This document shows, piece by piece, positions 9,896-47,981 of a DNA stretch of 64,000 nt. A program made the translations under genes and the position numbers. The notes beneath the pieces were generated by a model, which was not told the DNA's origin, did no database searches, and worked only from the letters and a program-made list of their open reading frames with translations. Source of the stretch: Ensifer adhaerens (GTDB lineage: Bacteria; Pseudomonadota; Alphaproteobacteria; Rhizobiales; Rhizobiaceae). Every line of letters begins with the position of its first letter. The first letter of the stretch is position 1. Location: the NCBI RefSeq assembly GCF_002007205.1, contig NZ_LAZS01000009.1, positions 1 to 64,000 of the forward strand. The letters are read 5' to 3'.

Positions 9896-9975
9896 CGACT
9901 TCTCCTGATGTACTCTCATTCGACGGCGCTTCGGCGCCGGGGCAAAGCGCCCGGCGCCATCCGGGCGCGACGGTC

Positions 9976-33890: not shown

Positions 33891-34655
33891 TCAGAGGGCC
33901 CGGCCGCCATCGACCTGGATGATGTGGCCGGTCGAGAAGCCAAGCAACGTTGCGCTTGCCAGGATGGCGGCGGCAATGTCGTCGACCTCGCCGATGCGGC
34001 CGAGCGGGGTCGAAGCCGCGACCTTGTCGTTGAAGTCCGAGCCCCGTCCGGGAACGAATTGCGTGTCGACGACACCCGGAGAAACGGCAAGCACCCTGAC
34101 TTCCGGTGCCAGAACGCGGGCGAGCGCCTTGGTCATCACGTCGATGCCGGCCTTGGCCGCGCAATAGGCGATGTTCGACCCGACGCCGGTGAAGGCTGCG
34201 ATCGACGAGATGGAGACGACGAGCCCGTCGCCGGACTTTTTCAGAAGCGGAGCAAAGGCGCGGATCGCCGCGAACTGGCTTCGCCAGTTCACCTTGAAGA
34301 TGTCGTCGATCAGCTCATCCGTCAGTGCGTCGAGATCCCGGTGGGCGATGGGCTTGGTGAAACCCGCCGCATTGACCAGCACGTCGAGCCGACCGAATTT
34401 CTGTTCAATCGCACGGGCGAGGTCGCCAAGAGCGCTGGAATCGGTGATGTCGACGGCATATCGCGCGTGACGTTCCGGGCCGGCAAAGGAGGAAAGCGCG
34501 GCATCCGCGCCTGCTGCACCCTGTTCGCCCGGCATGTGGGTGACGAGCACCGTCGCCCCTGCCTCCGCAAAAAGGCGCCCCGTCGCGGCGCCGATCGCGC
34601 CGTTTCCGCCGATGACGAGAATTGTCTTTCCAACCAAGGACCGCGGATACGCCAT
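33891..34655 (-). CDS. SDR family oxidoreductase of the LacI-type regulon
   Basis: 254 aa. The Rossmann motif is GGNGAIG at 16-22, NAAG follows LDVLV, and the catalytic YCAAK follows SISSIAAFTG; it ends GHIIQVDGGRAL. AGGGAGGAAC just before the ATG fixes the start. Two perfect GCAATCGATTGC palindromes lie 85-120 bp upstream, the same motif family as in the promoter of the transporter/catabolic operon beyond the LacI gene. It therefore probably oxidises or reduces an alcohol/ketone in that pathway. Confidence 0.9.
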   Translation of the reverse strand: MAYPRSLVGKTILVIGGNGAIGAATGRLFAEAGATVLVTHMPGEQGAAGADAALSSFAGPERHARYAVDITDSSALGDLARAIEQKFGRLDVLVNAAGFTKPIAHRDLDALTDELIDDIFKVNWRSQFAAIRAFAPLLKKSGDGLVVSISSIAAFTGVGSNIAYCAAKAGIDVMTKALARVLAPEVRVLAVSPGVVDTQFVPGRGSDFNDKVAASTPLGRIGEVDDIAAAILASATLLGFSTGHIIQVDGGRAL

Positions 34656-34739
34656 AAGTTCCTCCCTCTTGACCTGATGTCTTTTCAGCCGGCGGGAACA
34701 CTGCCCTGCAAATGCCGACCAATCGAAAGCGACCTTAGG

Positions 34740-34775
34740 GCAATCGATTGCACAAAACAATGGGCAATCGATTGC
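34740..34775. promoter_or_regulatory. Twin LacI-type operators upstream of the SDR gene
   Basis: GCAATCGATTGC occurs perfectly at 34740-34751 and 34764-34775, centres 24 bp apart, which suits dimers on nearly the same DNA face. The CG-centred palindrome is typical of LacI-family operators. Both sites lie upstream of the SDR start at 34655. Confidence 0.75.
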
Positions 34776-34876
34776 ATGGCCGAGGGTGTCGAAGGCTGCG
34801 GGCGAGACCGGCGGGAAAGCGTGCGGAGATGAGGCCTGGCCGTTGACGGCTGGCGAAATGCGGGCGGAGGGGATTG

Positions 34877-35917
34877 TCAGCGCCGCTGCGCTGCCACGGG
34901 CCCCGTGCTTTCGCGTTCCAGGAGTTCTACCGGAAGAACGGTCTCCAGCGGGATGTCGTCGTCTGCGCCGGCGTTCATGAGGCGCAGCAGGATCGAGGCG
35001 GCGGTAATGCCCGCATCATATTGCTGGATTCGGACGGTCGTGAGCCTCGGACGCGCCAGTTGCAGGAACGGCATGTCGTTGAAGCCGCTGACCGAAATGT
35101 CCGACGGGCAATCGAGGCCGTTCTCGCGCAACACGTCGATGCAGCCGAGCGCCAGGCGGTCGTTTGCGCAGAGCACCGCGGTGAAGTCGTGACCGGAGGC
35201 GAGCAGTTCGCGCGTGCACCGGGCGCCTTCGTCTTCGTCGAAGCGCATGGCGGTGACGATGAGTTGAGGATCGATCTCGATCGACATTCTCTCGGCGGCG
35301 CTGCGAAAGGCCGCCAGGCGCAACTGGCCGGTCGACAGATCCTGCGGCCCGGCAAGATGCGCGATCCGCCGGTGGCCGAGTTTCGTCAGGTGGCGCAGCA
35401 TCTCGCAGATGCCCAGGTCCTCGTCATTGATGACATAGGGGATGTTCGAATTCTCCACGCGCCGGTTGAGCGTCACCACCGACAGGCCGTCCTGCGCCGC
35501 CTTGGCGATCGACGGGTCGCTTCTGAGCACAGCGGCATGAATGACACCGTCCACACCACGGTCGCGCAACACTTCGAGAAGGCGAATTTCGCGTTCGCGC
35601 TCGCTGTCCGTGTTGACGATGATCGAGGCATAGCCGAGCGGTTCCAGAACACTCTCGATCCCGCGCAGGATCGGCGGGAAAATCGGGTTGGTGATGTCGG
35701 GGATGACGACACCGACGGTCATCGTGCGGTTGGTGCGAAGCCCGAAGGCAATGCGGTTGGGGCGATAGTCCAGGCGTTCTGCCGCCGCCTGGATCTTCGC
35801 CACGACCTCCGGCGTGATGCTCTTTCGCTCGGTCGGGTCAAGGGCGCGCGATACGGTCGACACATGAACGCCGGTCGCGCGCGCAATGTCCTTTAGCGTG
35901 GTTCGTTTCTTTTGCAT
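34877..35917 (-). CDS. LacI family transcriptional regulator
   Basis: 346 aa. The N-terminal helix-turn-helix with hinge is classic: TLKDIARATGVHVSTVSRAL at residues 7-26 and a hinge ending YRPNRIAFGLRT. A periplasmic-binding-protein-like sensor domain follows (VGVVIPDITNPIF, then SVSGFNDMPFLQLARP). GAGAGGTGAC precedes the ATG. It lies between the SDR gene and the divergent catabolic/transport operon, both carrying the same operator type, so it is the likely local repressor. LacI members usually sense sugars, but several control aromatic or acid catabolism. Confidence 0.93.
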   Translation of the reverse strand: MQKKRTTLKDIARATGVHVSTVSRALDPTERKSITPEVVAKIQAAAERLDYRPNRIAFGLRTNRTMTVGVVIPDITNPIFPPILRGIESVLEPLGYASIIVNTDSEREREIRLLEVLRDRGVDGVIHAAVLRSDPSIAKAAQDGLSVVTLNRRVENSNIPYVINDEDLGICEMLRHLTKLGHRRIAHLAGPQDLSTGQLRLAAFRSAAERMSIEIDPQLIVTAMRFDEDEGARCTRELLASGHDFTAVLCANDRLALGCIDVLRENGLDCPSDISVSGFNDMPFLQLARPRLTTVRIQQYDAGITAASILLRLMNAGADDDIPLETVLPVELLERESTGPVAAQRR

Positions 35918-35959
35918 GTGTCACCTCTCGCCTTCATTTAAAATCTTGCCAGAGGTTTT

Positions 35960-36028
35960 GCAATCGTTCGCATAGACACTTGACAAAGCGCAAACGGTGC
36001 GCATAATCGCCAATGTGCAATCGTTTGC
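35960..36028 (+). promoter_or_regulatory. Promoter and LacI-type operators of the catabolic/transport operon
   Basis: A sigma-70-like promoter is visible: TTGACA at 35980-35985, 16-nt spacer, CATAAT at 36002-36007. Operator-like sites flank and overlap it: GCAATCGTTCGC at 35960-35971, the weaker GCAAACGGTGCG at 35990-36001 inside the spacer, and GCAATCGTTTGC at 36017-36028. Repressor there would block polymerase directly. It is also upstream of the divergent LacI gene, which suggests autoregulation. Confidence 0.75.
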
Positions 36029-36131
36029 ATATTCAGTTTGCGGCGGGGCGGTTGAGGAGCCGCCCCGCCGTCGATCGAACAGCGCGCAAGTGACGTCCGG
36101 CATGGCCGGGCGATTTGTTTTTCGCTCCAAT

Positions 36132-36143
36132 GCAAACGATTGC
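36132..36143. promoter_or_regulatory. Downstream LacI-type operator in the operon leader
   Basis: GCAAACGATTGC is the exact reverse complement of the site at 36017-36028, with centres 115 bp apart. It sits 25 bp before the binding-protein ATG. The spacing would allow a repression loop with the promoter sites. Confidence 0.7.
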
Positions 36144-36168
36144 GCGCAACTGTCTGGGAGGAGACAAA

Positions 36169-37452
36169 ATGGGAATCAATCGGCTGATCGCGGCAGCAAC
36201 CGTTAGTGTGCTTTCGGCAAGCACCGTTGCGAGCGCTGCGGAAACAATACGGATCGGCGCATCGCTGCCGATTACCGGTGGCCTTTCGGTCAGCGGCGAA
36301 AAACACAAGCGGGGCTACGAGCTCTGCAACAAGCTGATCAACGAGGCAGGCGGCATCCTCGGCAAGCAGGTGGAGTTGATCGTCAGCGACAATCGCTCCG
36401 ACCCGGCGACGGCCATCAACCAGTACGAACGTTTCATCAATGTCGACAAAGTCGACGCCGTCTACGGCACGTTCTCGAGCCGCCTGACCTTTCCGGTCGG
36501 CAACGTTCTGTCCAAGTACAACATGGTGCATCCGGTTCCCTCGGGCGGAGCGCTCAGGATCTATGCCCAGGGCTACAAGAACCTCTTCTATTTCCAGGTC
36601 AATGCCGCCGAGTACACCGGCAAGGACGTGATCGGTCTCCTGAAGGAGATCAAGGATCCGGCGGATGCGCCGAAGACGGTCGCCGTCGTCCATGCGGACG
36701 ACTTCTTCGCCAACGCGATCGCCACCGGCCTGCTCGGCCAGAAAGTGATCGACCCGGCGAACGACAAGGAAATCGCCGACCTCGCGCCCGGTTACTTCAA
36801 GGAAGCCGGCATCGAGGTGGTCATGGAGGAGAAATGGCCTGAAGAAGGCTTCAACGACTGGCTGAACCTCGCAAACTCGATCAAGCGCTCCGGCGCTGAC
36901 ATGATCGTCGGCCTGACGGCTTCGGCGGAAGAAGCCGTCCAGCTCATGCGGTCGCTGAAAACCGTCGGTGCATCGGCGAAGCTTGTCTATCTCAGCCAGG
37001 GCGCGCAGACGGAGTTCATCGAGGGCGTCGGCAACGATGCGGCCGATGGTGTTGTCATCCACACCACCTGGCACAAGGATGTTCCCTTCAAGAGCACGCT
37101 CGCCGGAAAGCCCTTCGACAACGCCGATTTCGTGAAGGCGTTCGAAGCCGAATACGGCGTCGAGCCGGATGAGGACAGCGCCATTCCCTTCGCCGTCTGC
37201 CAGGGCATCGAGCAGGCGATCACCGGGGCCGGCACCACGGACAACGCCAAGATGGGCGAATGGCTGCACGCCCGCACCAAGGAACAGCCTGTCCAGACCG
37301 TGCTCGGCGATTTCAGCTGGGACGATCTCGGCCTGCCCGTCGAAAAGTCGCACATCATGACCCAGTGGCAGGATGGCAAGCTGACCTTCGTCTACCCGAC
37401 CGGCCAGTTCGAGGGCATCGTGCCCTTCCGCTATCCGAAGTCCGGTTTCTGA
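36169..37452 (+). CDS. Branched-chain-type ABC transporter binding protein
   Basis: 427 aa, Peripla_BP_6 (LivJ-like) fold. GGGAGGAGAC fixes the ATG at 36169. Signal peptide at residues 1-23 (cleavage near ASA-AE). The mature protein opens IRIGASLPITGGLSVSGEK, then LVVSDNRSDP-like and GTFSSRLTFPV segments of the ligand cleft. In soil alphaproteobacteria many such proteins bind aromatic acids or lactams, not leucine; the downstream ring-cleavage gene points to an aromatic ligand. First gene of the LacI-controlled operon. Confidence 0.9.
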   Translation: MGINRLIAAATVSVLSASTVASAAETIRIGASLPITGGLSVSGEKHKRGYELCNKLINEAGGILGKQVELIVSDNRSDPATAINQYERFINVDKVDAVYGTFSSRLTFPVGNVLSKYNMVHPVPSGGALRIYAQGYKNLFYFQVNAAEYTGKDVIGLLKEIKDPADAPKTVAVVHADDFFANAIATGLLGQKVIDPANDKEIADLAPGYFKEAGIEVVMEEKWPEEGFNDWLNLANSIKRSGADMIVGLTASAEEAVQLMRSLKTVGASAKLVYLSQGAQTEFIEGVGNDAADGVVIHTTWHKDVPFKSTLAGKPFDNADFVKAFEAEYGVEPDEDSAIPFAVCQGIEQAITGAGTTDNAKMGEWLHARTKEQPVQTVLGDFSWDDLGLPVEKSHIMTQWQDGKLTFVYPTGQFEGIVPFRYPKSGF

Positions 37453-37468
37453 CCTTTTGCAAAGGCAA

Positions 37469-37500
37469 GGGAGGGTGTTTCGTCCGCGAGGCGCCCTCCC
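37469..37500 (+). terminator. Intra-operon hairpin after the binding protein gene
   Basis: GGGAGGG (37469-37475) pairs with CCCTCCC (37494-37500), extendable by two pairs including a G-T. It lies 17 nt after the binding-protein stop, 50 nt before the ATPase gene. No T-run. It probably sets a higher level of binding protein, as is common in ABC operons. Confidence 0.5.
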
Positions 37501-37550
37501 GATCAGCAGGCATCTACCTACCCAGATTCTAGTACAAGGAGATCGCGCGG

Positions 37551-38297
37551 ATGCTCGAGGTTAAGAACCTGTGCAAGCACTACGGCGGAATTCGCGCCGT
37601 GGACGGCGCAAGCTTCAGGGTCGAGAAGGGCTCGATCACGGCACTCATCGGCCCGAACGGCGCCGGCAAGACCACGGCCTTCAACTGCATCAGCCGCACC
37701 GTCGTACCGACCTCGGGCGAGGTCTGGCTGGACGGGGAGCGGATCGACAATCTGCGCCCGCACAAGATCACGGCCAAGGGCCTGAGCCGGACCTTCCAGA
37801 TCTCGCGCAACCTCGCTGACATGACGGTGCTGGAAAACGTGATCGTGCAGGCGCGCAGCCGCGGCTTTGCCGACCTGTTTCGGCCGGCGGTCTCGGCGGA
37901 GGAGCGGGACAAGGCGATGTCGATCCTCGATTTCCTCGGGATCACCCGCATCGCCTACGAGGACGGGCACAACCTGTCCTACGGCCAGAAGAAGCTGATG
38001 GATCTGGCAGCACTGCTGATGGCCGATCCGAAGATCATCCTGCTCGACGAGCCGGCCGGCGGCGTCAATCCGACGCTGCTCGAAGAGATCGTCGGCCATA
38101 TCCGGGCGCTCAACGCCAAGGGCCTGACGGTGCTGATCGTCGAACACAACATGGATCTGATCATGCGGCTTTCGCACCGCGTCGTCGTCATGGCGCACGG
38201 GCGGGTGATCTGCGACGGCACGCCCGACGTGGTGCGTCGCGATCCGCATGTGCTCGAAGCCTATCTGGGCGGCGTACTGGAAGAGGAAGCGGCCTGA
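37551..38297 (+). CDS. ABC transporter ATP-binding protein, LivG type
   Basis: 248 aa. Walker A GPNGAGKTT near residue 35, signature-like LSYGQKKLMDLA, Walker B IILLDEPAGG, and the LivG-typical insertion with FQISRNLADMTVLENV. AAGGAG 9 nt upstream. It pairs with the LivF-type ATPase that starts inside its stop codon. Together they power the heterodimeric LivHM-type channel. Confidence 0.94.
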   Translation: MLEVKNLCKHYGGIRAVDGASFRVEKGSITALIGPNGAGKTTAFNCISRTVVPTSGEVWLDGERIDNLRPHKITAKGLSRTFQISRNLADMTVLENVIVQARSRGFADLFRPAVSAEERDKAMSILDFLGITRIAYEDGHNLSYGQKKLMDLAALLMADPKIILLDEPAGGVNPTLLEEIVGHIRALNAKGLTVLIVEHNMDLIMRLSHRVVVMAHGRVICDGTPDVVRRDPHVLEAYLGGVLEEEAA

Positions 38298-39025
38298 TGA
38301 GCGAACTCCTGCAAGTTACCAACATCACCGCCGGCTACGGCGACGGCCCGGCTATTCTCGATGGCGCGCGGCTGACGGTCGAGCCCGGCAAGGTCCACTG
38401 CATCATCGGCCCGAACGGCGCCGGCAAGTCGACGCTGCTGAAAGCGATCTGCGGCATGCTGACGATCCGCAAGGGTGACGTCGTCTTCAAGGGCGAGCGG
38501 CTGAACGGGCTGCGCCCCGACCAGATCCTGCGCAAGGGCATCTGTTTCGTGCCGCAGGAACGCGCGCTGTTTCCGAAGATGACGGTGCGCGAGAACCTGC
38601 GCATGGGCGGATACGTGCTCGATGACACGAAACTGCGCGATCGCCGCATCGACGAAATCCTCGAGCGCTTCCCGGTGCTGCGCGAGCGCGCCGACCAGCA
38701 TGCCGGAACCATGTCGGGCGGCCAGCAGCAGACGCTTGCCATGGCACGCACGCTGATCGTCAAGCCCGACATCGTCATGCTGGACGAACCCTCCCTCGGG
38801 CTGGCGCCGAAGGTGGTCCAGGAGATGTTCGACATCATGAAGATGATGTCGCAGGAGGGCGTCACCGTGCTGCTCGTCGAGCAGAACGCATTGATGGGCC
38901 TCAAGAACTCCGACTGGGGCGTCGTGCTCGACCTCGGCCGCACCCTCTTCGAGGGGCCGGCCGAGGCGGTTCTGGCGGACCCGCGCATCCAGGAACTTTA
39001 CCTCGGCGGCCGCAAGGTCGCGTAG
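38297..39025 (+). CDS. ABC transporter ATP-binding protein, LivF type
   Basis: 242 aa. Walker A GPNGAGKST, signature MSGGQQQTLAMARTL, Walker B IVMLDEPSLGLAP, and the LivF-style ending LEGPAEAVLADPRIQELYLGG. The ATG overlaps the previous stop by one base (TGATG), so translation is coupled. The permease gene follows after 11 nt. Confidence 0.94.
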   Translation: MSELLQVTNITAGYGDGPAILDGARLTVEPGKVHCIIGPNGAGKSTLLKAICGMLTIRKGDVVFKGERLNGLRPDQILRKGICFVPQERALFPKMTVRENLRMGGYVLDDTKLRDRRIDEILERFPVLRERADQHAGTMSGGQQQTLAMARTLIVKPDIVMLDEPSLGLAPKVVQEMFDIMKMMSQEGVTVLLVEQNALMGLKNSDWGVVLDLGRTLFEGPAEAVLADPRIQELYLGGRKVA

Positions 39026-39036
39026 CGGAGGACACA

Positions 39037-39915
39037 ATGACAGACATTCTTCAGATACTGATACTCGGGCTTGCGCTCGGCGGCGTGATCGCCCTGATGG
39101 GGTCCGGACTTTCGCTGGTCTTCGGGGTCATGCGCATCGTCAACCTGGCCCATCCGTCACTGATCATCTGCGGCGCCTATGTCAGCTATTGGGCCTTCAA
39201 GCTCTGGGGCCTCGACCCGATCGCGACGTTGCCGATCGCGGCACTGATCATGGCGGCGATCGGCGTGCTGCTCTACCGGCTGATGTTCGAGAGCCAGGCC
39301 AAAAGCGCGCGCTACTCGGAAATGACGGTGCTTCTGACTTTCGCTCTGGCGATGATCGTTGAAGGCTTCCTCGGCGCCGCCTTTACCAACACCCAGCGCG
39401 TGACCTCGCCGGAGTATGCGACGGATGCCTTTTTCATCGGCAGCCTGTTCATTCCGAAGGGTCAACTCTATGCCGGCTGTGTCTCGCTGGCGATCATCGG
39501 CGCGCTGACGCTGTTCCTCAACTACTCGCGGCTCGGTTACGCCATCCGCGCCACCACGCAGAACCGCGAGGCCGCCGAACTGCTCGGCGTCAATGTCAAC
39601 CTCATCAGCATGATCGCCTTTGCGATCGGCATCGGCCTCGCGGGTGCTGCCGGTTCGCTGGTGAGCTTCGTCTTCAGCTTCTTCCCCGCCAAGCAGTGGG
39701 AATGGATCGCAATGCTGATGTCGGTCGTCGTGCTCGGCGGCATGGGCAGCGTGCTCGGCACCGTCGTCGCCGCTCTTCTGCTCTCGGTCATCGCCGCCTT
39801 CGTCGGCGCCTGGGTGGGCGCCACCTGGTCGACCATGACCTTCTTCCTCGCACTCTTCGTCATCCTGCTGATCCGTCCCCAGGGCCTGTTCGGCGAAAAA
39901 CCGGAGTTGGCATAA
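39037..39915 (+). CDS. ABC transporter permease, LivH type
   Basis: 292 aa with about eight hydrophobic segments, BPD_transp_2 family. The N-terminal GLALGGVIALMGSGLSLVFGVMRIVNLAH pattern is typical of LivH; the end reads LLIRPQGLFGEKPELA. GGAGGAC precedes the ATG. Its stop overlaps the LivM-type start by one base (TAATG). Confidence 0.94.
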   Translation: MTDILQILILGLALGGVIALMGSGLSLVFGVMRIVNLAHPSLIICGAYVSYWAFKLWGLDPIATLPIAALIMAAIGVLLYRLMFESQAKSARYSEMTVLLTFALAMIVEGFLGAAFTNTQRVTSPEYATDAFFIGSLFIPKGQLYAGCVSLAIIGALTLFLNYSRLGYAIRATTQNREAAELLGVNVNLISMIAFAIGIGLAGAAGSLVSFVFSFFPAKQWEWIAMLMSVVVLGGMGSVLGTVVAALLLSVIAAFVGAWVGATWSTMTFFLALFVILLIRPQGLFGEKPELA

Positions 39916-40958
39916 TGGCCGTAGACCTGCAACAAGCTGACGCGAGCTCGGTGCTCGAGGCCCGTCGCATCCACAATCAGAAGCTTGCGCGCCAGCATGA
40001 CCAGACCCGCGCCACATGGTTTCCCCTTGTTGTTCTCGGTGTGCTGCTCGCCCTGCCGCTGCTGCAACTGACCGGCAACTACAACTACCTGCTGCACCTC
40101 GTCCTGTTCACGGCATCCTACGCGGTGATGGCGAGTGGTTGGAACATCATCGGCGGCTTTGCCGGCTATATCTCGCTCGGCCACGCGGTGTTCTTCGCGA
40201 TCGGCGGCTATTTTTCAGGCGTGCTCCTGGCGCGGTACGGCATCTCGTCGCTCTTGACGGCGCCGCTCGCCGGCCTGGTGGCCGCCATCTGCGGCTATCT
40301 CGTCGGCCTCATCACGCTGAAGGTTCGCGGCCCGAGCTTCATCATCTCGTCGATCGCACTTCTGATGATCGCCCGCATTCTGTTCGACCACTGGGGGTTC
40401 ATCGGCGGTGCCAACGGCATGTCGCTGCCGGTGACCGACCTGCCGGTACAGACTGCGAAGCTGCCCTACTACTATGCCTTCGTGCTGATGGCCGCCTTCA
40501 CCGTATGGGCGACCTATCGCATCAAGCATTCCAAATTCGGGCTCGGCCTGCGTGCACTCTCCAAGGATGAGGTCAAGGCGGAAAGTGCGGGGATCAACAC
40601 CCGCTTCTACAAGGTGCTCGCCTTCGCTCTGTCGGCCTTCTTCGTCGGCATGTCCGGCGCGGTCTGGGGCGAGTACCTCACCTATCTCCGGCCGAACATC
40701 TTCCTGATCATTCTGGTTTCGGCAAACCTGGTGCTGATGTGCATACTCGGCGGCAAGGGCACGATTGCCGGTCCGGTCGTCGGTGCCATCCTCATCGTCG
40801 CCTTCAACGAAATCTTCGTCGCGACGCTCGGCGCATCCGAGATCAACATTCTCGCGACCGGATTCGTCATGGTCCTGGGGCTGATGTTCTTCCCGAACGG
40901 CGTGATCGGAACGCTCGCCCGCAAGGGCAAGCTGCCCCGCGTCCTCAACTGGGATTGA
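39915..40958 (+). CDS. ABC transporter permease, LivM type
   Basis: 347 aa, about nine hydrophobic segments after a 35-residue cytosolic N terminus. The GGFAGYISLGHAVFFAIGGY stretch is the LivM hallmark. The end reads MFFPNGVIGTLARKGK. Coupled to the LivH-type gene. Although the open frame begins earlier, that part overlaps the LivH gene, so the TAATG start is used. Confidence 0.94.
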   Translation: MAVDLQQADASSVLEARRIHNQKLARQHDQTRATWFPLVVLGVLLALPLLQLTGNYNYLLHLVLFTASYAVMASGWNIIGGFAGYISLGHAVFFAIGGYFSGVLLARYGISSLLTAPLAGLVAAICGYLVGLITLKVRGPSFIISSIALLMIARILFDHWGFIGGANGMSLPVTDLPVQTAKLPYYYAFVLMAAFTVWATYRIKHSKFGLGLRALSKDEVKAESAGINTRFYKVLAFALSAFFVGMSGAVWGEYLTYLRPNIFLIILVSANLVLMCILGGKGTIAGPVVGAILIVAFNEIFVATLGASEINILATGFVMVLGLMFFPNGVIGTLARKGKLPRVLNWD

Positions 40959-40969
40959 GGGAGGCGACC

Positions 40970-41755
40970 ATGCAGGACTTCATCCTCTACAACGCCCCTC
41001 AGTCGACGTGCAGCCAGCGGGTTCGATACGTTCTCAACGCCAAGGGCCTCGCCTTTAAGGAGCACAAGCTCGATCTCTTCACCGGCGATCAGCTCAAGCC
41101 CGAATATCTGGCGATCAACCCGAACGGCGTCGTGCCCTCGCTCGTCCACCAGGGCCGCGCGGTCACCGATTCCGCCGTCATCATGGAGTATCTGGAGGAT
41201 ATTCTTCCCGGTGGGTTGCGGCCGCAGGACGCCTTCGGCGCCGCAAAGATGCGGGCGATGATGCGCTTCATCGACGAAGTGCCGACGCCGGCGGTCCGGG
41301 TGCCTTCCTACAACCTCGCCTTCCTGCCGCACTACCAGGCGATGACGGCGGAGGAGTTTCAGGCGGTCTGCGATGCAAAGCCGCTTCGCCGCGAATTCCT
41401 GATGAAGATGGGGCGCACCGGCTTTCCCGAGCAGGAAATGAATGAAGCGCTCGGGCGACTGCAGCGCGGCGTTCAGCGCATGGCGGCGTGGCTTTCCGAC
41501 AATGGCGGGCCGTGGGTCATGGGCGATCAGCTGACGTTGGCGGATATCGCGATCATGCCGGTGATCGTCCGGATGGACGATATCGGACTGTCCTCGATGT
41601 GGGCGGAGATGCCGGTGATCCAGAGCTGGCTCGATGCCATCCGCGCAACCGGCGCCTTCGCTGAAACCTATTACTACGGGTCGCTGCTGACCGAAAAATA
41701 TCCGCACCTGAAGACGGCCAAGCCCGAACTTCGGGTCGCCGGGTCAGGCCTGTGA
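40970..41755 (+). CDS. Glutathione S-transferase family protein
   Basis: 261 aa. The N-terminal thioredoxin-like domain has NAPQSTCSQRVRYVL, where Cys14-Ser15 occupy the position of the zeta/beta-class active-site residue, and NPNGVVPSL with the cis-Pro. The all-helical C-terminal domain has LTLADIAIMP. In aromatic pathways such proteins serve as maleylpyruvate/maleylacetoacetate isomerases, thiol-dependent dehalogenases or ether-cleaving enzymes. GGGAGGCG upstream; 11 nt after the LivM-type gene, 19 nt before the ring-cleavage dioxygenase, so the role is likely in the same pathway. Confidence 0.9.
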   Translation: MQDFILYNAPQSTCSQRVRYVLNAKGLAFKEHKLDLFTGDQLKPEYLAINPNGVVPSLVHQGRAVTDSAVIMEYLEDILPGGLRPQDAFGAAKMRAMMRFIDEVPTPAVRVPSYNLAFLPHYQAMTAEEFQAVCDAKPLRREFLMKMGRTGFPEQEMNEALGRLQRGVQRMAAWLSDNGGPWVMGDQLTLADIAIMPVIVRMDDIGLSSMWAEMPVIQSWLDAIRATGAFAETYYYGSLLTEKYPHLKTAKPELRVAGSGL

Positions 41756-41774
41756 CGCGGAAAGGAGAACAGGG

Positions 41775-42716
41775 ATGAACAGCCATATCAGCCCCGAGGC
41801 AAAGCTGATTTCCAGGGAGGCCGACGTCACGCCGACGGTGCTTGCAGCCATGTCGCACGGCGACGATCCGCGGCTCAAGCAGATCATGGACACGATGGTC
41901 AGGCATTTGCATGCCTTCCTGCTGGAAGCACGCCCGACCGAGGCGGAATTCGAATACGCCCTGCGCTGGATCACTGCGGTCGGCCAGGCGACCAACGATG
42001 CCCATAACGAAACCGTGCTTGCCGCCGACGTGCTCGGCGCCTCGACGCTGATCGACCTGATCAACAATGATGGCATGCAGGGCGAGACGCTGTCGGCGCT
42101 CTTGGGGCCGTTCTATCGCGGGGGTGCGCCGAAATGCTTAAACGGCGACTGCATCGCCCGTTCGGATACGCCGGGATCGCAGCTCTACTTCACCGGGCGA
42201 GTGACCGATCCAGCCGGCCGACCCGTCGAAGGGGCGACCCTTGATGTCTGGCAGGCGTCCCCGGTCGGGCTTTACGAGAACCAGGACGAGACGCAGGACG
42301 ACTTCAACCTGCGCGGCCGGTTCACGACGGATGGCGACGGAAACTTTCATTTCGTGTCGGTGAAGCCGGCAGGCTACCCGGTTCCAACCGATGGACCGGT
42401 CGGCGATCTCTTGCGGGCGCAGAAGCGCACGCCGATGCGTCCGGCCCACATCCACTTCATCGTCTCGGCGCCGGGCTACAAGACGCTCGTCACCCAGATC
42501 TTTTCCGACACGCACGAAGCCCTGGTCAACGACGTGGTCTTCGGCGCGAAACAGCAGATCGTTGGGAGGTTCTTCCGCCACGACAGCCTGGATAGCGAAT
42601 TTCCGGGCGCTGAGGCGCCTTTCTACAGCTGCAACTATCACTTCAAGCTGGTGGAGGGTCAGTCGGTCCTGCCGCTGCCTCCCATCTCCGGAAAGAAGGT
42701 GGCGCATCATGGCTGA
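41775..42716 (+). CDS. Intradiol ring-cleavage dioxygenase (hydroxyquinol 1,2-dioxygenase-like)
   Basis: 313 aa. An N-terminal helical linker domain (about residues 19-100) precedes the catalytic beta-sandwich. All four non-haem Fe(III) ligands are visible: Tyr167 (GLYENQ), Tyr201 (AGYPVP), His225 and His227 (RPAHIHF). The length and the RPAHIHFIVSAPGY stretch resemble hydroxyquinol and chlorocatechol dioxygenases more than protocatechuate enzymes. The expected reaction is ortho cleavage of a hydroxyquinol or catechol to maleylacetate or a muconate. GGAGAACAGG precedes the ATG. No maleylacetate reductase, muconate cycloisomerase or ring hydroxylase is in the window. Confidence 0.9.
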   Translation: MNSHISPEAKLISREADVTPTVLAAMSHGDDPRLKQIMDTMVRHLHAFLLEARPTEAEFEYALRWITAVGQATNDAHNETVLAADVLGASTLIDLINNDGMQGETLSALLGPFYRGGAPKCLNGDCIARSDTPGSQLYFTGRVTDPAGRPVEGATLDVWQASPVGLYENQDETQDDFNLRGRFTTDGDGNFHFVSVKPAGYPVPTDGPVGDLLRAQKRTPMRPAHIHFIVSAPGYKTLVTQIFSDTHEALVNDVVFGAKQQIVGRFFRHDSLDSEFPGAEAPFYSCNYHFKLVEGQSVLPLPPISGKKVAHHG

Positions 42717-42756
42717 GAGATCAAGCAGCTCGCCCTCTGGCGCGGAGGGCGTGTGA
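42709..42756 (+). other. 15-codon ORF bridging dioxygenase and BKACE genes
   Basis: An ATG at 42709, overlapping the dioxygenase stop region, opens MAERSSSSPSGAEGV and stops at a TGA (42754-42756) that overlaps the BKACE ATG (TGATG). It could carry ribosomes across the 39-nt gap for translational coupling, or be chance. Confidence 0.3.
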
Positions 42757-43634
42757 TGCAGCAGAACGTCATCATCACCTGTGCGGTCACCGGCAATCTC
42801 ACAACGCGGGAAAACCATCCGGGACTTCCCGTCACGCCGGAAGAGATCGCCAATGCCTGCCTGGAGGCGGCCGATGCCGGTGCGGCGATCGCCCATATTC
42901 ACGTGCGCGATCCGGTTACGGCAAAGCCCTCCATGGAGCTCGAATATTACCGCGAGGTCGTCGAGCGGATCCGGGCCAAGAACACGGCGCTGATCCTCAA
43001 CGTCACCACCGGTCCGGGCGGCCGCTACCACCCGAGCGACGAGAACCCGGCGGTCGCCGGGCCCAGGACCACGCTGATGCGGCCGGAAAAGCGGGTCGAG
43101 CACATTGTCGCGCTGAAGCCTGATATCGCCACGCTCGATCTCAACACCATGACTTTCGGGTCGGAGGTCGTCATCAACACGCCGGCCAACGTCAAGATCA
43201 TGGCCGACATCATCAACGAGGCGGGCTCCAAGCCGGAGCTCGAGGTGTTCGACACCGGCCACATCCAGCTGGCGCAGGATCTCTTGAAGGCGGGCGTGTT
43301 GAAGTCGCCGGCGATGTTCACGATCGTCACCGGCGTCAAATACGGCTTTCCCTCGACCACCGACGTGATGGCGACCGCGGCCCGCATGCTGCCGGGAGAC
43401 GCCGTCTGGACCGGCTTCGGCGTCGGGCGAATGTCGTTCCCGATGGCCGTTCAGGCGTACCTGCTCGGCGGTCACGTCCGGGTTGGCCTGGAGGACAATT
43501 CCTACATCGCCAAGGGCGTGCTTGCCAAAGGCAATGGTGAACTGGTCGAGCGGGCAAGAGATCTCATCGAGAAGCTCGGCGGACGGATCGCCGAGCCCTC
43601 TCAGGCCCGTGAAATCCTCGGACTGCGTGCATAG
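42756..43634 (+). CDS. BKACE family beta-keto acid cleavage enzyme
   Basis: 292 aa, formerly DUF849; relatives are 3-keto-5-aminohexanoate cleavage enzymes. Features: CAVTGN near the start, the Zn-binding HIHVRDP near residue 47, and the GVKYGFPSTTD and VWTGFGVGRMSFP segments of the TIM barrel. The family exchanges a beta-keto acid and acetyl-CoA for acetoacetate and a new acyl-CoA. The ATG at 42756 is preferred to a GTG at 42753 because GGAGGG is 6 nt away. In this operon the natural candidate substrate is 3-oxoadipate or a relative made after ring cleavage; that is inference. Confidence 0.9.
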   Translation: MQQNVIITCAVTGNLTTRENHPGLPVTPEEIANACLEAADAGAAIAHIHVRDPVTAKPSMELEYYREVVERIRAKNTALILNVTTGPGGRYHPSDENPAVAGPRTTLMRPEKRVEHIVALKPDIATLDLNTMTFGSEVVINTPANVKIMADIINEAGSKPELEVFDTGHIQLAQDLLKAGVLKSPAMFTIVTGVKYGFPSTTDVMATAARMLPGDAVWTGFGVGRMSFPMAVQAYLLGGHVRVGLEDNSYIAKGVLAKGNGELVERARDLIEKLGGRIAEPSQAREILGLRA

Positions 43635-43661
43635 GCATCGATATCTGCAAGGAGGCATAGA

Positions 43662-44666
43662 ATGAACATTCAGGTGGACGCCAAGATCGCCCGGGCACTG
43701 AGGGTGACGGAAAAATCTCCCGATCTCGACAATCTCAAGATCGACGTGGTCGATGTCGCAGTGCCGCGGCCGGGGCCGGGCCAGGTGCTGGTAGAAATCG
43801 TGGCGGCGGGGGTCAATCCCAGCGACGTCAAAGCATCGCTCGGGCACATGCCGCACGCCGTCTGGCCGCGCACGCCGGGTCGCGATTTCGGCGGCATCGT
43901 GCGCGAGGGGCCGTCGTCGATGATCGGTATGGAAATCTGGGGCGGCGGCGGCGAGCTCGGCATCACCCAGGACGGCAGCCACGCCAAATGGATGGTGCTC
44001 GACCAGAAGGCCGTGCGCGCCAAGCCTGCGAATTTCACCATGCAGGAAGCGGGCTCGATCGGCGTGCCGTTCATCACCGCCTTTGAGGGCCTGCGCGAAG
44101 CCGGCGGCGTGCAGCCGACGGATGTCGTGCTTGTCTGCGGCGGCAACGGCAAGGTCGGGCAGGCGGTCATCCAGCTCGCGACCATGGCCGGCGCCAAGGT
44201 CTTCGCGGTCGAGTACAACGAGCAGCCGCTTCTGGCGCACACCAACGCGCCGGTCGAGATGCTGAACAGCGCCAAGGACGACGTTGCCGCGATCGTGCGC
44301 GAAAAGACCGGCGGCCACGGGGCCGACATCGTCTTCAACACGGTCGGAAGTCCCTATTTCGAAATCGCCAACAACGCGATGGCGAAACAGGCACGACAAG
44401 TGTTCATTTCCACCTTCGATCGCGCCGTGCCCTTCGATATCTTCAACTTCTTCCGTGGCCGCCACAAATATATCGGCATCGACACGCTGGCGCTGTCCTC
44501 GGTCGAGGGCGCGCGCATCTTCGACAAGCTCAAGCCGAAGTTCGAAGAGGGCAAGCTGAAGCCGTTCCCGATCAATCCGGCGACCGTCTATGGCTTCGCG
44601 GATGCCGCCAAGGCCTATGCCTCGGTGCTGCGCGGAACGCCCGAGCGCGTGCTGCTGGTGCCCTGA
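43662..44666 (+). CDS. MDR superfamily zinc-independent quinone/enoyl reductase
   Basis: 334 aa, medium-chain dehydrogenase/reductase. The GroES-like domain has GVNPSDVKASLG and PGRDFGGIV; the Rossmann domain has VCGGNGKVGQAVIQLA near residue 160. No Zn ligands of the alcohol dehydrogenase type are obvious, which fits quinone or enone reductases using NADPH. AAGGAGG precedes the ATG. In this operon it could reduce a quinone or the activated double bond of a ring-cleavage product. Confidence 0.9.
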   Translation: MNIQVDAKIARALRVTEKSPDLDNLKIDVVDVAVPRPGPGQVLVEIVAAGVNPSDVKASLGHMPHAVWPRTPGRDFGGIVREGPSSMIGMEIWGGGGELGITQDGSHAKWMVLDQKAVRAKPANFTMQEAGSIGVPFITAFEGLREAGGVQPTDVVLVCGGNGKVGQAVIQLATMAGAKVFAVEYNEQPLLAHTNAPVEMLNSAKDDVAAIVREKTGGHGADIVFNTVGSPYFEIANNAMAKQARQVFISTFDRAVPFDIFNFFRGRHKYIGIDTLALSSVEGARIFDKLKPKFEEGKLKPFPINPATVYGFADAAKAYASVLRGTPERVLLVP

Positions 44667-44691
44667 GGAGGAGGAAGAGGAGGAGGGAACG

Positions 44692-45024
44692 ATGCAGGTG
44701 ACGCGTTACGGCGATGCCAGATCCTATGAGGCGCCGGAGCACTATGGCATGCATTGCCTGCGGCTCCAGGGAAAGGAAGCGACGGCAACCGACACGATCT
44801 GGATCGGCCTGTCGCATCTCCTGCCTGGCGGCCACACCTCGCTGAAGGACGCTGCGGTCGAGAAGATCTACATCGTCGTTGCAGGCGAGGTGACGGTCGA
44901 AACCGGCAGCGAGAGCGTCACCCTCGGCTTTCTCGACAGCTGCCGCCTGGCGCCCGGCGAGGCGCGGGCGCTCGTCAACCGCACCAATGCGCCGGCGTCC
45001 ATCCTGCTCGCCATGCCGACCTGA
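44692..45024 (+). CDS. Cupin domain protein
   Basis: 110 aa, a single small beta-barrel: LPGGHTSLKDAAVEKIYIVVAGEVTVE holds the first cupin motif, with one His and one Glu. The second motif is degenerate. It could be a small isomerase/decarboxylase or a binding protein. The ATG follows a long polypurine tract of GGA repeats (44664-44690), an unusually strong or multi-register ribosome binding region. It is 26 nt after the reductase gene in the same operon. Confidence 0.85.
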   Translation: MQVTRYGDARSYEAPEHYGMHCLRLQGKEATATDTIWIGLSHLLPGGHTSLKDAAVEKIYIVVAGEVTVETGSESVTLGFLDSCRLAPGEARALVNRTNAPASILLAMPT

Positions 45025-45050
45025 GCGCGCCGAAGATTGGAGAATTGTTG

Positions 45051-45659
45051 ATGGTTTCATCGGGTCTCTACCGACTGGGGTCGCGCGAGCCGCGCGTTCC
45101 CGCCGACGGGCGATATTACATCGCGCCCGGCGCCGTGGTGATCGGCGACGTGCAGTTGGAGGAGGATGTCAGCATCTGGTTCAATGCCGTCTTGCGCGGC
45201 GACAACGAGCCGATCATTCTCGGGCGCGGCTGTAACATCCAGGACGGATGCGTTGTCCACACCGACCCCGGGTATCCCGTCGAGATCGGCGACGATGTCA
45301 CCGTCGGGCACAATGCCACCATTCATGGATGCCGGATCGGCAAGGGTAGTCTCGTCGGCATGGGGGCGACGATCCTGAACGGCGCTCGGATCGGAGACAG
45401 ATGCCTGATCGGGGCCGGCGCACTGGTGCGGAAAAACATGGTCGTCCCGGATGGGTCGCTGGTCCTCGGGGTTCCCGCCCAGATCGTCCGCACACTCGAC
45501 GCGAAAGTGGCCGAGGGCCTGTCGACCGGGGCGCAGCGATACCGCGCGAAGGCGCAGAACTACCCTGGGGATCTTCAGCCGGTTTCCGTCGGGAAGGCAA
45601 CGCCGGGTGCCTACGAAGGCAATTCCATCATGCGGGAGGACGTGCATGTCGCAGAGTGA
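45051..45659 (+). CDS. Gamma-class carbonic anhydrase-like hexapeptide protein
   Basis: 202 aa, left-handed beta-helix. Hexapeptide turns run from about residue 28 to 130, and the three zinc ligands are visible as His70 (VVHTD), His87 (VGHN) and His92 (IHGC). Relatives include CaiE/PaaY, a thioesterase-like member tied to aromatic or carnitine catabolism. PaaY-like activity (hydrolysing stalled CoA esters) is a better guess here than CO2 hydration. The long frame upstream overlaps the cupin gene and is not used; the ATG at 45051 has a weak GGAG 8-13 nt upstream. Confidence 0.88.
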   Translation: MVSSGLYRLGSREPRVPADGRYYIAPGAVVIGDVQLEEDVSIWFNAVLRGDNEPIILGRGCNIQDGCVVHTDPGYPVEIGDDVTVGHNATIHGCRIGKGSLVGMGATILNGARIGDRCLIGAGALVRKNMVVPDGSLVLGVPAQIVRTLDAKVAEGLSTGAQRYRAKAQNYPGDLQPVSVGKATPGAYEGNSIMREDVHVAE

Positions 45660-46698
45660 GAACCGACTGGTCAGTGTCGTCGAGCATTGGCTCCCGCGCA
45701 TGGAGGTGGCCGGGATCCCATCGGCAACCGCACGCGCCGTCATCGAGCGCGCCGGCGTCTGGCAGAACTGGCTTTCCGCGTGGAGTGAGGAGGGCGAGCG
45801 TCACGCAGAGCTCGGCGCTGCGGCTCTGGTCGCCGGCCGCAACGTGACCGCCGGCGAAGCCTATGCCCGCGCCAGCCTTTTTTATCATTTCGGACAGTTC
45901 ATGGCCTTCGAGGACCTGGACGCCAAGGCGAGGGCGGCCGCGCGCAAAGTGGAGCTCTATCGCCTCGCCTCGCCGCTGCTCGATCCGCCTGGCGAGATGG
46001 TCGCTGTGCCCTTCGAGGACGGCGAACTCCGGGCCTTTCTTCGCGTGCCGAAGGGGGAGGGCAGCCACCCGCTGGCGCTGATCATCCCGGGCTCGGATTC
46101 GACCAAGGAGGAATTCCCGGCATTCGAGCGGCATTTTCACGCGCGCGGCGTGGCGACCCTGTCGCTCGATGGGCCCGGACAGGGCGAGGGGCGTTCGATG
46201 GGGGCGCTGCGCCCGGATATCGGCCCGGTCGTCGAGGCGGCAATCCGGTCGGTGGAGGCGCATCCACGCCTTTCGGGCAAGGTTGCGCTCGTCGGCATGG
46301 CCTTCGGCGGGTTTCTCGCCTTGCGCGCGGCCGCATCCGTGCCGGCGATCGCCGGCGTCGTCTCCATCAATGGCTTCTTCGATCTCGGCGGGTTCTGGGA
46401 CGCGCTGCCGCTGGTCTATCGCGACAACATGCGCTTCTCGCTGGGTGGCACGGACGTGCGCGAGCGCGCCGACCGTTTCACCCTGGCGCGATGCGCGCCG
46501 CCAACCGTCCCGGCACTCATCCTCCACGGTGGACGCGACAAGATCTTTCCACCCTCCGAAGCGGTAAAATGCGCTGATATCTGCGCGCGCGGCGCCAAAC
46601 TGCACATATTCGAGGACGGCAACCACGTCTGCAACAACATCCCCTGGCTCTATCGCCCGCTCGTCGCCGACTGGGTGGCGGAGCGCACACGCAGGTGA
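45646..46698 (+). CDS. DHPON-hydrolase-like alpha/beta protein with Ala in place of the nucleophile
   Basis: 350 aa with the FrsA/2,6-dihydroxypseudooxynicotine hydrolase layout: a helical N-terminal half (about 1-115) and a catalytic alpha/beta domain. The oxyanion region IIPGSDSTKEE, the acid in HGGRDKIF (Asp298) and the histidine in EDGNHVCNN (His327) are all present. The nucleophile elbow, however, reads GMAFGG, with Ala219 where GxSxGG is expected. The ATG overlaps the carbonic anhydrase-like gene by 14 nt and follows GGGAGGACG. It is the last gene of the operon. Either it is inactive/ligand-binding, or it uses a mechanism that needs no serine ester. Confidence 0.88.
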   Translation: MSQSENRLVSVVEHWLPRMEVAGIPSATARAVIERAGVWQNWLSAWSEEGERHAELGAAALVAGRNVTAGEAYARASLFYHFGQFMAFEDLDAKARAAARKVELYRLASPLLDPPGEMVAVPFEDGELRAFLRVPKGEGSHPLALIIPGSDSTKEEFPAFERHFHARGVATLSLDGPGQGEGRSMGALRPDIGPVVEAAIRSVEAHPRLSGKVALVGMAFGGFLALRAAASVPAIAGVVSINGFFDLGGFWDALPLVYRDNMRFSLGGTDVRERADRFTLARCAPPTVPALILHGGRDKIFPPSEAVKCADICARGAKLHIFEDGNHVCNNIPWLYRPLVADWVAERTRR

Positions 46699-46752: not shown

Positions 46753-47811
46753 TTACGCGTCCGGCAAGGTGAAGACGGCGCAAGGTGCCGCGATGCCGCG
46801 CAAGGGGTGGTCGCCGAGCGGCAGCAGCGGCGTCGACGCGACGTCGGCGACGGCGCCCGAGATCAACACGGACCGGCCGAGCGGCCGGCACAGACCCTCC
46901 AGGCGGCTGACGAGGTTTACCGCCGGGCCGATGGCGGTAAAATCCAGCCGATCGGCGGCGCCGATATTGCCCCAGAAAACATCGCCGAGATGCAGCGCCA
47001 CGCCGAAGGAGAGCGGCGGCAGACCGTCGGCCTGCCGTGTCTGGTCGAGATGCGCCATGCCGGCACGCGCAGCGCCGACCGCGCGCAGGGCTGCATCGCA
47101 GGCTTCGCCCGGCGAACCGCTTACCGGAAAGATCGCCAGAACGCCGTCGCCGATGAATTTCAACACCTCGCCGCCAAAAGCGTGGATCGCGCCGGCGAGG
47201 CGGTCGAACCAGGCGTCGAGCGCCGCGATCACCTCGGCGGGTTCCGATGTTTCGGACAGCGCCGTGAAATTGCGCAAATCGGCGTAGAGCAACGCGGCGC
47301 GGATGGTCTCGCCGCTATCGCGGGTCAGCGCCCCGGCGCGAACACGGGCAGCGCTGCGGCGGCCGAGATAGGCGTCAAGCAGGGCGGCGAGCGCTGCACG
47401 CTCGGCAAGTGCTGCGAGCGGCGCGGCGGCAAAACGCGCGACATCACGAAGCTGCGCTGTCTCGTCAGGGCCGAAAGGGCGGGTTCCGGCCCAGCCGAGG
47501 GGCGCACGTTCCGTCTCCGAGCCGGTCGACTGTTCCAGCAGCGGCCCGAGCTCGGCCAACCACTCCGCTCCGGCCCGGTCGGAGACGGCGCCGGCAAAGC
47601 CGAGGCTCTCGATCACCACGTCGGTCTCGGCTCGCCAAAGCCAGGTGCGGCGCGCGATGATCGGGTGCGGCACGGCGAGCGTGAGCGCACCGCCCGCGAG
47701 CGGCAAACCGTCGGCGACAAGCCGACGGCCGAGTTCCGACAGGAACCGGTCCGGCTCCGGCGAGGCGCTTGCCTCGTCCACGAGCCAGGCGAGGGGTGCG
47801 GACAAATCCAT
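46753..47811 (-). CDS. Class III adenylate/guanylate cyclase
   Basis: 352 aa. A GAF-like or unassigned N-terminal half (about 1-165) precedes the cyclase domain. Both metal-binding aspartates are present (Asp178 in LYADLRNFT, Asp222 in FIGDGVLAIF), as are Lys218 for adenine recognition and GPAVNLVSRLEG with Asn and Arg for catalysis, so it should make cAMP. Rhizobia carry many such cyclases. An in-frame ATG at 47907 is possible; neither start has a strong site, and 47811 is chosen for similarity to related N termini. It converges with the catabolic operon (54 nt apart). Confidence 0.88.
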   Translation of the reverse strand: MDLSAPLAWLVDEASASPEPDRFLSELGRRLVADGLPLAGGALTLAVPHPIIARRTWLWRAETDVVIESLGFAGAVSDRAGAEWLAELGPLLEQSTGSETERAPLGWAGTRPFGPDETAQLRDVARFAAAPLAALAERAALAALLDAYLGRRSAARVRAGALTRDSGETIRAALLYADLRNFTALSETSEPAEVIAALDAWFDRLAGAIHAFGGEVLKFIGDGVLAIFPVSGSPGEACDAALRAVGAARAGMAHLDQTRQADGLPPLSFGVALHLGDVFWGNIGAADRLDFTAIGPAVNLVSRLEGLCRPLGRSVLISGAVADVASTPLLPLGDHPLRGIAAPCAVFTLPDA

Positions 47812-47981
47812 GGTGGAGAGGATAGCGTCGGGACCCCTGCGGACAAGTCCCTTCCCGCCTGGTGTCGCGGGTAAGGCATGGAGACGCCTGGTGGCGTCAT
47901 CGGCCATGGCGGTCTATGATTGCCGTAGCCCGCACTCGGCCTCTCACCCGGCGGGCAGGCCAATCTGCAAAGGGAAGACCG

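Follow-up and report, generated by a model that had tools for sequence, protein, structure and literature searches.

A conserved module of a hydroxyquinol-type dioxygenase and a BsfD-clade BKACE in Ensifer adhaerens, with a possible role in aromatic ring cleavage

In Ensifer adhaerens, a gene for an intradiol dioxygenase of the hydroxyquinol type shares an operon with genes for a BKACE, an MDR reductase and a cupin. With an SDR gene nearby, these form a five-gene core that, by sequence comparison, is widespread in related loci and that an earlier, sequence-only reading of this DNA had missed. The best explanation of the locus, which keeps the route of that reading with corrections and which we hold to be modestly probable, is a substrate-inducible catabolic operon that would carry out triol ring cleavage, reduction by the MDR and SDR enzymes and a final cleavage by the BKACE. 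What the sequence shows directly is which genes are present, where the operators lie, that the five-gene core is conserved and that the active-site residues are of the hydroxyquinol type; repression, induction, all of the reactions, the stage at which the SDR and the cupin act and the identity of the substrate are inferred.

According to this explanation, the LacI-family regulator would use common operators to repress the operon together with the SDR gene that lies apart from it, until a compound taken up by the Liv-type importer, or a product of it, lifted the repression. The glutathione S-transferase (GST), carbonic anhydrase and alpha/beta hydrolase, which are accessory, may turn this compound into a 1,2,4-triol (hydroxyquinol-type) ring, and the dioxygenase would open the ring to give a maleylacetate-type acid. 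The MDR enzyme, the SDR enzyme or both would convert that acid to a 3-oxoadipate-type beta-keto diacid. From the diacid and acetyl-CoA, the BKACE would form acetoacetate and succinyl-CoA, or a substituted analogue, in a single step standing in for CoA-transferase and thiolase.

Gene layout and operators

The window analysed is a stretch of 64,000 nucleotides. Open reading frames at positions 33891-46698 give 12 plus-strand genes, a divergent LacI gene and the SDR gene (Table 1); the gene list drawn up earlier was borne out, its positions being confirmed in the sequence. The plus-strand series (36169-46698) runs from the substrate-binding protein (SBP) to the alpha/beta hydrolase in the order tabulated, with intergenic gaps of -14 to +98 bases. 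Pfam and NCBIfam profiles were scanned against 10 of the 14 locus proteins. The remaining four are the Liv transport genes, named from sequence reading and synteny with an annotated relative; the LivG counterpart in Shinella sp. HZN7 is annotated as an ABC ATP-binding protein.

Table 1. Genes and operator sites of the locus, in window coordinates
Feature	Position	Strand	Evidence or remark
SDR oxidoreductase	33891..34655	-	Pfam adh_short_C2 1.9e-46; core module gene, outside main operon here
Two exact operator copies, GCAATCGATTGC	34740-34751, 34764-34775		before SDR gene
LacI-family regulator	34877..35917	-	Pfam LacI 3.4e-11, Peripla_BP_3 1.3e-32
Operator with 1 mismatch	35960-35971		SBP/LacI region 35960..36143
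Exact operators	36017-36028, 36132-36143		before SBP/LacI
Substrate-binding protein, Liv/HAAT-type importer	36169..37452	+	Pfam Peripla_BP_6 2.7e-39
LivG-type ATPase	37551..38297	+	by eye and syntenic orthologs
LivF-type ATPase	38297..39025	+	by eye and synteny
LivH-type permease	39037..39915	+	by eye and synteny
LivM-type permease	39912..40958	+	by eye and synteny
Glutathione S-transferase	40970..41755	+	nearest solved structure LigF, PDB 4xt0 2.6e-20
Intradiol dioxygenase, hydroxyquinol type	41775..42716	+	PDB 3n9t 1e-60, 1tmx 2.3e-59; Pfam Dioxygenase_C, _N
BKACE (PF05853), BsfD clade	42756..43634	+	Pfam 5.9e-97; PDB 9zsc 2.6e-112
MDR enone/quinone reductase-like, candidate maleylacetate-type reductase	43662..44666	+	Pfam ADH_zinc_N 3.4e-15
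Small cupin, core module gene	44692..45024	+	Pfam Cupin_2 25.6 bits, under 27.2 cut-off
Gamma carbonic anhydrase / PaaY-like, accessory	45051..45659	+	NCBIfam gamma carbonic anhydrase 4e-50, PaaY 2.9e-39, both under cut-off
Alpha/beta hydrolase, 2,6-dihydroxypseudooxynicotine hydrolase-like, accessory	45646..46698	+	PDB 2jbw 1.5e-36

The PDB matches of the SBP are amino acid-type binding proteins (best 2.2e-18), and the similarity of the alpha/beta hydrolase to 2jbw covers residues 42-345 of 350. NCBIfam matches of the GST to maiA (7.8e-24) and of the MDR enzyme to quinone_pig3 (2.3e-33) are under cut-off, as is a match of the cupin to beta-D-galactosidase, which we distrusted and set aside. 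PDB searches returned a single match for the cupin (E 0.024) and none for the SDR at 1e-30. Translation of the SDR likely starts at an ATG; its longest mechanical open reading frame begins at a TTG, at 34760.

The operator GCAAWCGWTTGC has four exact sites in the whole 6.87-Mb genome, all at this locus, and the reversed pattern, used as a control, has zero exact sites genome-wide. With up to one mismatch the window holds five matches against a shuffled mean of 0.98, and five were reached in 1 of 100 shuffles. The exact sites at 34740 and 34764 confirm that the SDR gene carries the same operators as the operon, as had been claimed. The earlier interpretation of a ring-cleavage operon under probable LacI control is supported.

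Of the 56 related loci tested, 48 have at least one operator site within the stretch fetched and 8 have none; the 56 include 36 of the 80 named loci described below, and some genomes among them were fetched twice. Each of the 19 relatives searched carries the exact operator at least once; in G330, G181 and G271 every exact copy is off-module. These three relatives and the 8 loci with no site count against the main explanation. A wider LacI regulon was rejected, as most off-module sites are single and lack a common neighbour in the 18 such stretches read. One off-module site, in G350, led to a second module copy. At L258, an operator pair precedes another LacI-like gene.

The conserved module and its dioxygenase

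Related loci were collected from named genomes with an alignment of twelve module dioxygenases as the query, and the best 80 of 333 matches were taken. The sample was chosen by dioxygenase similarity rather than by neighbours and lies by design within the module's clade. Among these best 80 of 333 loci, which belong to alpha- and betaproteobacteria, the BKACE is found at 78, the SDR at 75, the MDR at 74, the cupin at 69 and LacI at 68; identity floors (43% for SDR, 40% for MDR) apply to the single counts of those two genes only, all other counts being floor-free. The first three counts lead us to regard dioxygenase, SDR, BKACE, MDR and cupin as a conserved module with the SDR in its core. The sequence-only reading had proposed a genome search for gene co-occurrence, and BKACE, SDR and MDR do occur together at 72 of the best 80 of 333 loci (70 with the identity floors). 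Judged by sequence, then, the SDR is a core module gene that was overlooked; its identity is 71-74% with the SDRs of L257 and L054 and 56-59% with those that L030, L033, L035, L038 and L049 encode within the operon. The accessory genes were counted in the same best 80 of 333 loci: the GST at 26, the carbonic anhydrase at 16 and the alpha/beta hydrolase at 18, three of these 18 matches being below 30% identity. A few of the Liv permease and hydrolase matches in this sample, counted with no floor, are weak.

The dioxygenase had been credited with all four Fe ligands, and Tyr167, Tyr201, His225 and His227 are indeed present, identical at 80 of the best 80 of 333 loci. Leu82 and Asp85, kept at all 80 of the same loci, correspond to Leu80 and Asp83 of 1tmx, which we take to be residues of importance in hydroxyquinol 1,2-dioxygenase. 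At the Asp83 position, Asp is found in 28/28 module rows and 18/18 MAR/KCE rows (MAR, maleylacetate reductase) and Gly in 12/12 HpaHI/Pca rows; this comparison covered 20 + 8 + 12 + 18 of 77 rows, with the CatA outgroup and L036 left out. Structure matches and active-site residues thus support the earlier identification of an intradiol dioxygenase and suggest the hydroxyquinol type.

A tree was built of 78 dioxygenase rows, 19 of them in no context group and without L036, whose dioxygenase is seemingly frameshifted. It separates a 45-row clade containing the window enzyme from the MAR/KCE rows (starred branch 100/99). When hydroxyquinol 1,2-dioxygenase identity was assessed by grouping with MAR-linked enzymes, the window dioxygenase stood apart, and no MAR lies within 6 kb in the 45-row clade. 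As far as sequence can tell, the enzyme is hydroxyquinol-like, yet its clade is separate from the MAR-linked enzymes. The locus shares with the hydroxyquinol pathway (hydroxyquinol 1,2-dioxygenase, maleylacetate reductase, PcaIJ and PcaF) the dioxygenase family, the Fe ligands and the Leu/Asp active-site pair, but its dioxygenase has its own clade, and the operon lacks MAR and PcaIJF and holds MDR, SDR, BKACE and cupin instead. The suggestion that the MDR enzyme replaces MAR appears plausible, the best own-genome match to MAR being just 29% identical.

Since MAR is found in the fetched stretch of 6 of the 80 named loci (best 80 of 333), and some of these loci hold a second hydroxyquinol-type dioxygenase, the module may act on a different triol. 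The substrate could be methyl-, methoxy- or carboxy-substituted, or come from a hydroaromatic acid, with the BKACE cleaving the matching substituted beta-keto acid and plain hydroxyquinol being left to separate MAR-linked clusters. This explanation overlaps with our main one, and we consider it a serious possibility, if somewhat short of probable. It is favoured by the split of the dioxygenase clade and by the presence of another, more distant dioxygenase close to the module in L035, L037 and L038, accompanied in L035 by MAR. Neighbouring genes point the same way. Of 88 loci, with the query's own locus counted in each case, 10 have an acyl-CoA-dehydrogenase-like gene and 3 a ketosteroid/oxocyclohexanecarboxylate-dehydrogenase-like gene, encoding enzymes that could aromatise a ring. 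Carboxylate-type carriers also stand in for the Liv importer, with DctA at 11 of the 88 (its own locus included) and TRAP in L051 and L053. Against it, the hydroxyquinol-type active-site residues are retained, and no pointer to any particular substituent emerged.

Counting against the main explanation, four aromatic hydroxylase queries found no match at the 88 loci beyond one query's own locus. Degradation of an N-heterocycle, considered for the molybdenum hydroxylases near some modules, was dropped because these match at just 7 of 88 loci, their own query included and one at 28%. In the oxidative deoxyribonate pathway, an SDR and a BKACE are proposed to act sequentially on a hydroxy acid and then a beta-keto acid (PMC6365646). 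The substrate there is a sugar acid, and the accessible portion of that source names no ring-cleavage dioxygenase; because the module here is built around an intradiol dioxygenase, such a sugar-acid pathway was set aside.

The BKACE and the lower pathway

The BKACE scores 324.7 bits against PF05853 (gathering 24.8). Its Zn ligands, His47, His49 and Glu246, are found in all aligned rows of related loci, and all 77 aligned rows among the best 80 of 333 loci have Arg90 and Phe165. The lower step proposed for it in the sequence-only reading stays plausible, but the fit to 3-oxoadipate itself is weakened: against NF053568 (3-oxoadipate:acetyl-CoA acetyltransferase) the protein scores 189.1 bits, below the 350 cut-off, and the BKACE tree places it outside the 3-oxoadipate clade, with BsfD. 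Nor was such a route undescribed, as had been supposed. BKACE action on 3-oxoadipate is the named NCBIfam family NF053568, and two reports propose it for pca clusters of Methylobacterium (PMC8963497, PMC12379598). There, too, a BKACE lies beside an intradiol dioxygenase as a proposed replacement for PcaIJ and PcaF, and the NF053568 BKACE likewise has Phe and a GGR motif. The window BKACE nevertheless belongs to a different clade (29-35% identical), and it stands with MDR, SDR, cupin and LacI genes where the Methylobacterium clusters have pca genes. NF053568 neighbours were read at 30 of 54 matches and 20 of those 30 were widened; MAR, a hydroxyquinol-type dioxygenase, a Liv permease and the NF053568 BKACE occur together in 4 of the 20.

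The nearest characterised protein we met is BsfD of flavophos biosynthesis, which acts by acetylation and decarboxylation, reportedly without cleavage (PMC12871164). It has the same Zn ligands; Arg90 and Phe165 of the window BKACE correspond in a gap-free alignment to its Arg91 and Phe166, and a loop insertion is common to both. By analogy, the DUF849 enzyme here might transfer an acetyl group from acetyl-CoA to a beta-keto acid and decarboxylate the product to a 1,3-diketone, to be processed further by the SDR, the MDR or the alpha/beta hydrolase, which resembles a C-C hydrolase. We judge this unlikely. A quick tree does put BsfD at the base of the module clade or inside it, but as a long single branch whose placement the program flagged as unsure, and the hydrolase is present at only 18 of the best 80 of 333 loci. 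A catalytic Tyr has been stated for all BKACE sequences (PMC12871164), and its position is Phe165 in the window protein. Phe and the GGR motif occur, however, in 30/30 NF053568 members (5 via a six-frame fallback), so that neither marks BsfD chemistry, Phe165 is ruled out as proof of it, and the Tyr looks unsafe as a definition of BKACE. The putative BsfD gene, on a B. stagnalis plasmid, adjoins PEP mutase and lumazine synthase, with no ring-cleavage dioxygenase beside it; neither of these phosphonate genes is among the ten profile-scanned window proteins, the other four being Liv.

The absence of CoA-transferase and thiolase, noted earlier, holds for the operon, with no pcaIJ or pcaF among the ten profile-scanned window proteins, but not for the genome. 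Contig 21 carries pcaF above cut-off with two adjoining CoA-transferase genes, and contig 4 a second thiolase above the pcaF cut-off. These candidates favour a reading in which the BKACE is accessory and the genome's own PcaIJF finishes the ring-cleavage product. We find this improbable, given that the BKACE, at 78 of the best 80 of 333 loci, is the commonest neighbour gene tested and that the pcaJ model TIGR02428 has no own-genome gene above cut-off.

In favour of the preferred BKACE cleavage, the genus has another copy of the module (L275), and there the genes that follow it encode a DctA-type carrier, a carbonic anhydrase, 3-oxoacid CoA-transferase A and B and a malic-enzyme-like protein, a set that would suit acetoacetate and succinyl-CoA as products. 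Such CoA-transferase genes are found at 1 of 88 module loci, and TIGR02429 and TIGR02428 do not separate acetoacetate from 3-oxoadipate CoA-transferases.

Novelty and implications

We came across no account of the module in the open-access literature searched, from which most subscription papers are absent. Tentatively, it may represent a widespread, undescribed ring-cleavage route in which MDR/SDR enzymes would do the work of maleylacetate reductase and, at the same time, a BsfD-clade DUF849 enzyme that of CoA-transferase and thiolase, acting on a non-hydroxyquinol triol under a LacI-type regulator. If this is true, aromatic catabolism in rhizobia, roseobacters, Bradyrhizobium and Burkholderiales would have an independently recruited BKACE ending, and a pathway should not be called incomplete merely for want of MAR or PcaIJF in its cluster. 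BKACE chemistry would have to be inferred with caution from the Tyr/Phe position alone, and a testable role would be provided for a DUF849 clade whose sole characterised member met so far makes part of an antimicrobial phosphonate pathway.

A conserved module and its operators

Twelve genes (table), separated by intergenic gaps of -14 to +98 bases, form a putative operon in the window, accompanied by a divergent LacI gene and a separate SDR gene. This gene content, listed by the sequence-only reading, was confirmed, with the Liv genes named by eye and by synteny. The G+C content is 0.61-0.65 across 36-46 kb (2-kb steps), and most of the window is alike. The 6.87-Mb genome contains the operator GCAAWCGWTTGC four times: one pair precedes the SDR gene and another lies before SBP/LacI. 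The reversed control pattern has no match in the genome. Of 56 related loci, among which several genomes figure twice, 48 have one or more sites; in a whole-genome search of 19 relatives, exact sites lay only away from the module in three.

Coordinates of features in the window and in related loci
Feature	Location	Position	Strand	Remark
Twelve-gene operon	window	36169-46698	plus	
Large ORF past the operon	window	46753-47907	minus	adenylate/guanylate cyclase-type look, by eye
Operator pair	L258 (genome G521), off module	5191 and 5256		same operator, directly before another LacI-like gene
Second BKACE of the genome	L046 (own contig 18)	9264-10166		41% identical; Asp at the window Arg90 position
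Dioxygenase of Liv-linked operon	L036 (genome G350)	about 9418-10362		apparent frameshift near start; 90% identity confined to residues 77-313, 72% over whole

A dioxygenase match with an E-value of 1e-100 or lower was obtained for 15 of 394 genomes in the family, including that of the window. In nine of the remaining 14 loci the order is LacI, SBP-LivGFHM, GST, dioxygenase, BKACE, MDR, cupin; the rest are without the importer or cut by a contig edge. We also used twelve aligned module dioxygenases as the query for a scan of named genomes, and analysed the best 80 of 333 matches, which lie within the module's own clade by design, with neighbour genes free to vary. Among these 80 loci, BKACE is present in 78, SDR in 75, MDR in 74, cupin in 69 and LacI in 68, compared with Liv permease in 31, GST in 26, the hydrolase in 18 and the carbonic anhydrase in 16. 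BKACE, SDR and MDR occur together in 72 of the 80 (70 with identity floors). Because of these neighbour counts, the module core is dioxygenase-SDR-BKACE-MDR-cupin, present in alpha- and betaproteobacteria, and this conserved ring-cleavage module with its LacI gene is real. The transporters around the core vary (Liv, TRAP, DctA, NMT1-like ABC), as do the accessory genes.

The SDR gene lies beyond LacI, outside the operon, in the window, L029 and L036; in other close loci that have it, it directly follows the dioxygenase, ahead of BKACE where BKACE is in reach. Identity of the window SDR is 71-74% with the L257 and L054 enzymes, compared with 56-59% for the SDRs encoded inside the operon in five close relatives, which suggests that the gene was probably exchanged, retaining its own operator pair.

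Dioxygenase and BKACE

In a dioxygenase tree of 78 rows, a starred split (100/99) sets 45 rows (28 module, nine HpaH/HpaI-linked, three PcaHG-PcaF-linked and five unlabelled) apart from the side with rows linked to maleylacetate reductase (MAR) or KCE. MAR was found within 6 kb for none of the 45, against six of the best 80 of 333 named loci in their fetched stretches. The 1tmx-83 position is Asp in 28/28 module and 18/18 MAR/KCE rows and Gly in 12/12 HpaHI/Pca rows; at 1tmx-107, all 28 module rows have Leu, where the MAR/KCE rows carry Val or Ile. We read the module dioxygenase as a hydroxyquinol-type enzyme, possibly with a different preference.

Sister dioxygenases at L099-L104, L063, L084 and L085, in which Gly takes the place of the hydroxyquinol-type Asp, adjoin HpaH-type hydratase genes, most also HpaI-type aldolase genes and one (L102) shikimate-related genes; these loci perhaps encode another uncharacterised intradiol route. 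In three genomes of the order (L065, L081, L083), a hydroxyquinol-type dioxygenase gene sits between pcaF and pcaH-pcaG.

The window BKACE passes PF05853 (324.7 bits) and scores 189.1 bits against NF053568, the 3-oxoadipate-named family, under its 350 cut-off. Among solved structures its closest relative is BsfD (9zsc), of flavophos biosynthesis; we take a B. stagnalis gene, 58.0% identical to the window BKACE, to be BsfD because PEP mutase and lumazine synthase genes lie beside it. In the available text of PMC12871164, BsfD transfers acetyl and the product then loses CO2, with no cleavage, and its authors implicate Phe166, replacing Tyr, and a loop with Arg91 for the phosphonate. Both are matched in the window enzyme (F165, R90) and kept in 77/77 aligned rows. 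Since Phe and a GGR motif occur in 30/30 NF053568 members, the Phe is no proof of BsfD chemistry. The Arg is compatible with a substrate bearing a second acid group, and we infer that the Arg residues are spatially equivalent. A quick tree resolves NF053568 as a clade of its own (100), while BsfD sits on a long branch basal to the module clade, its placement unsure.

Lower pathway and known parallels

Elsewhere in the window's genome, contigs 21 and 4 each encode a thiolase that passes the pcaF cut-off, the one on contig 21 beside two CoA-transferase genes; no gene passes the pcaJ model TIGR02428, and no close MAR was found (best match 29%). Within the same genus, genome G350 carries a second copy of the module (L275, contig 28). 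This copy has a full-length dioxygenase, and after it come genes for a DctA-type carrier, carbonic anhydrase, both subunits (A and B) of a 3-oxoacid CoA-transferase and a malic-enzyme-like protein. These would fit acetoacetate and succinyl-CoA as products, although the CoA-transferase models do not tell acetoacetate from 3-oxoadipate transferases. CoA-transferase genes adjoin the module at this one of 88 loci; the same genes occur at 64% in L114/L141, one NF053568 locus of a single genome.

Of 199 genomes in the order, 52 have an NF053568 match above the cut-off. Among 30 such loci, eight have PcaH/PcaG alongside and four a hydroxyquinol-type dioxygenase; among 20 widened loci, four (L139, L140, L145, L146) combine MAR, Liv permease, hydroxyquinol-type dioxygenase and NF053568 BKACE, and would be hydroxyquinol-type clusters ended by this family.

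The sequence-only reading called the BKACE route undescribed. As far as the available text of PMC8963497 and PMC12379598 goes, the step has already been proposed for Methylobacterium pca clusters, so the chemistry is not new; the module differs in that its BKACE belongs to another clade. In the open-access literature searched, we found no description of the step in this module by that clade. Cleavage of a putative triol ring, reduction by the MDR enzyme and cleavage by BKACE would, with somewhat better than even probability on the sequence evidence, be what this module encodes, and this is the leading reading.
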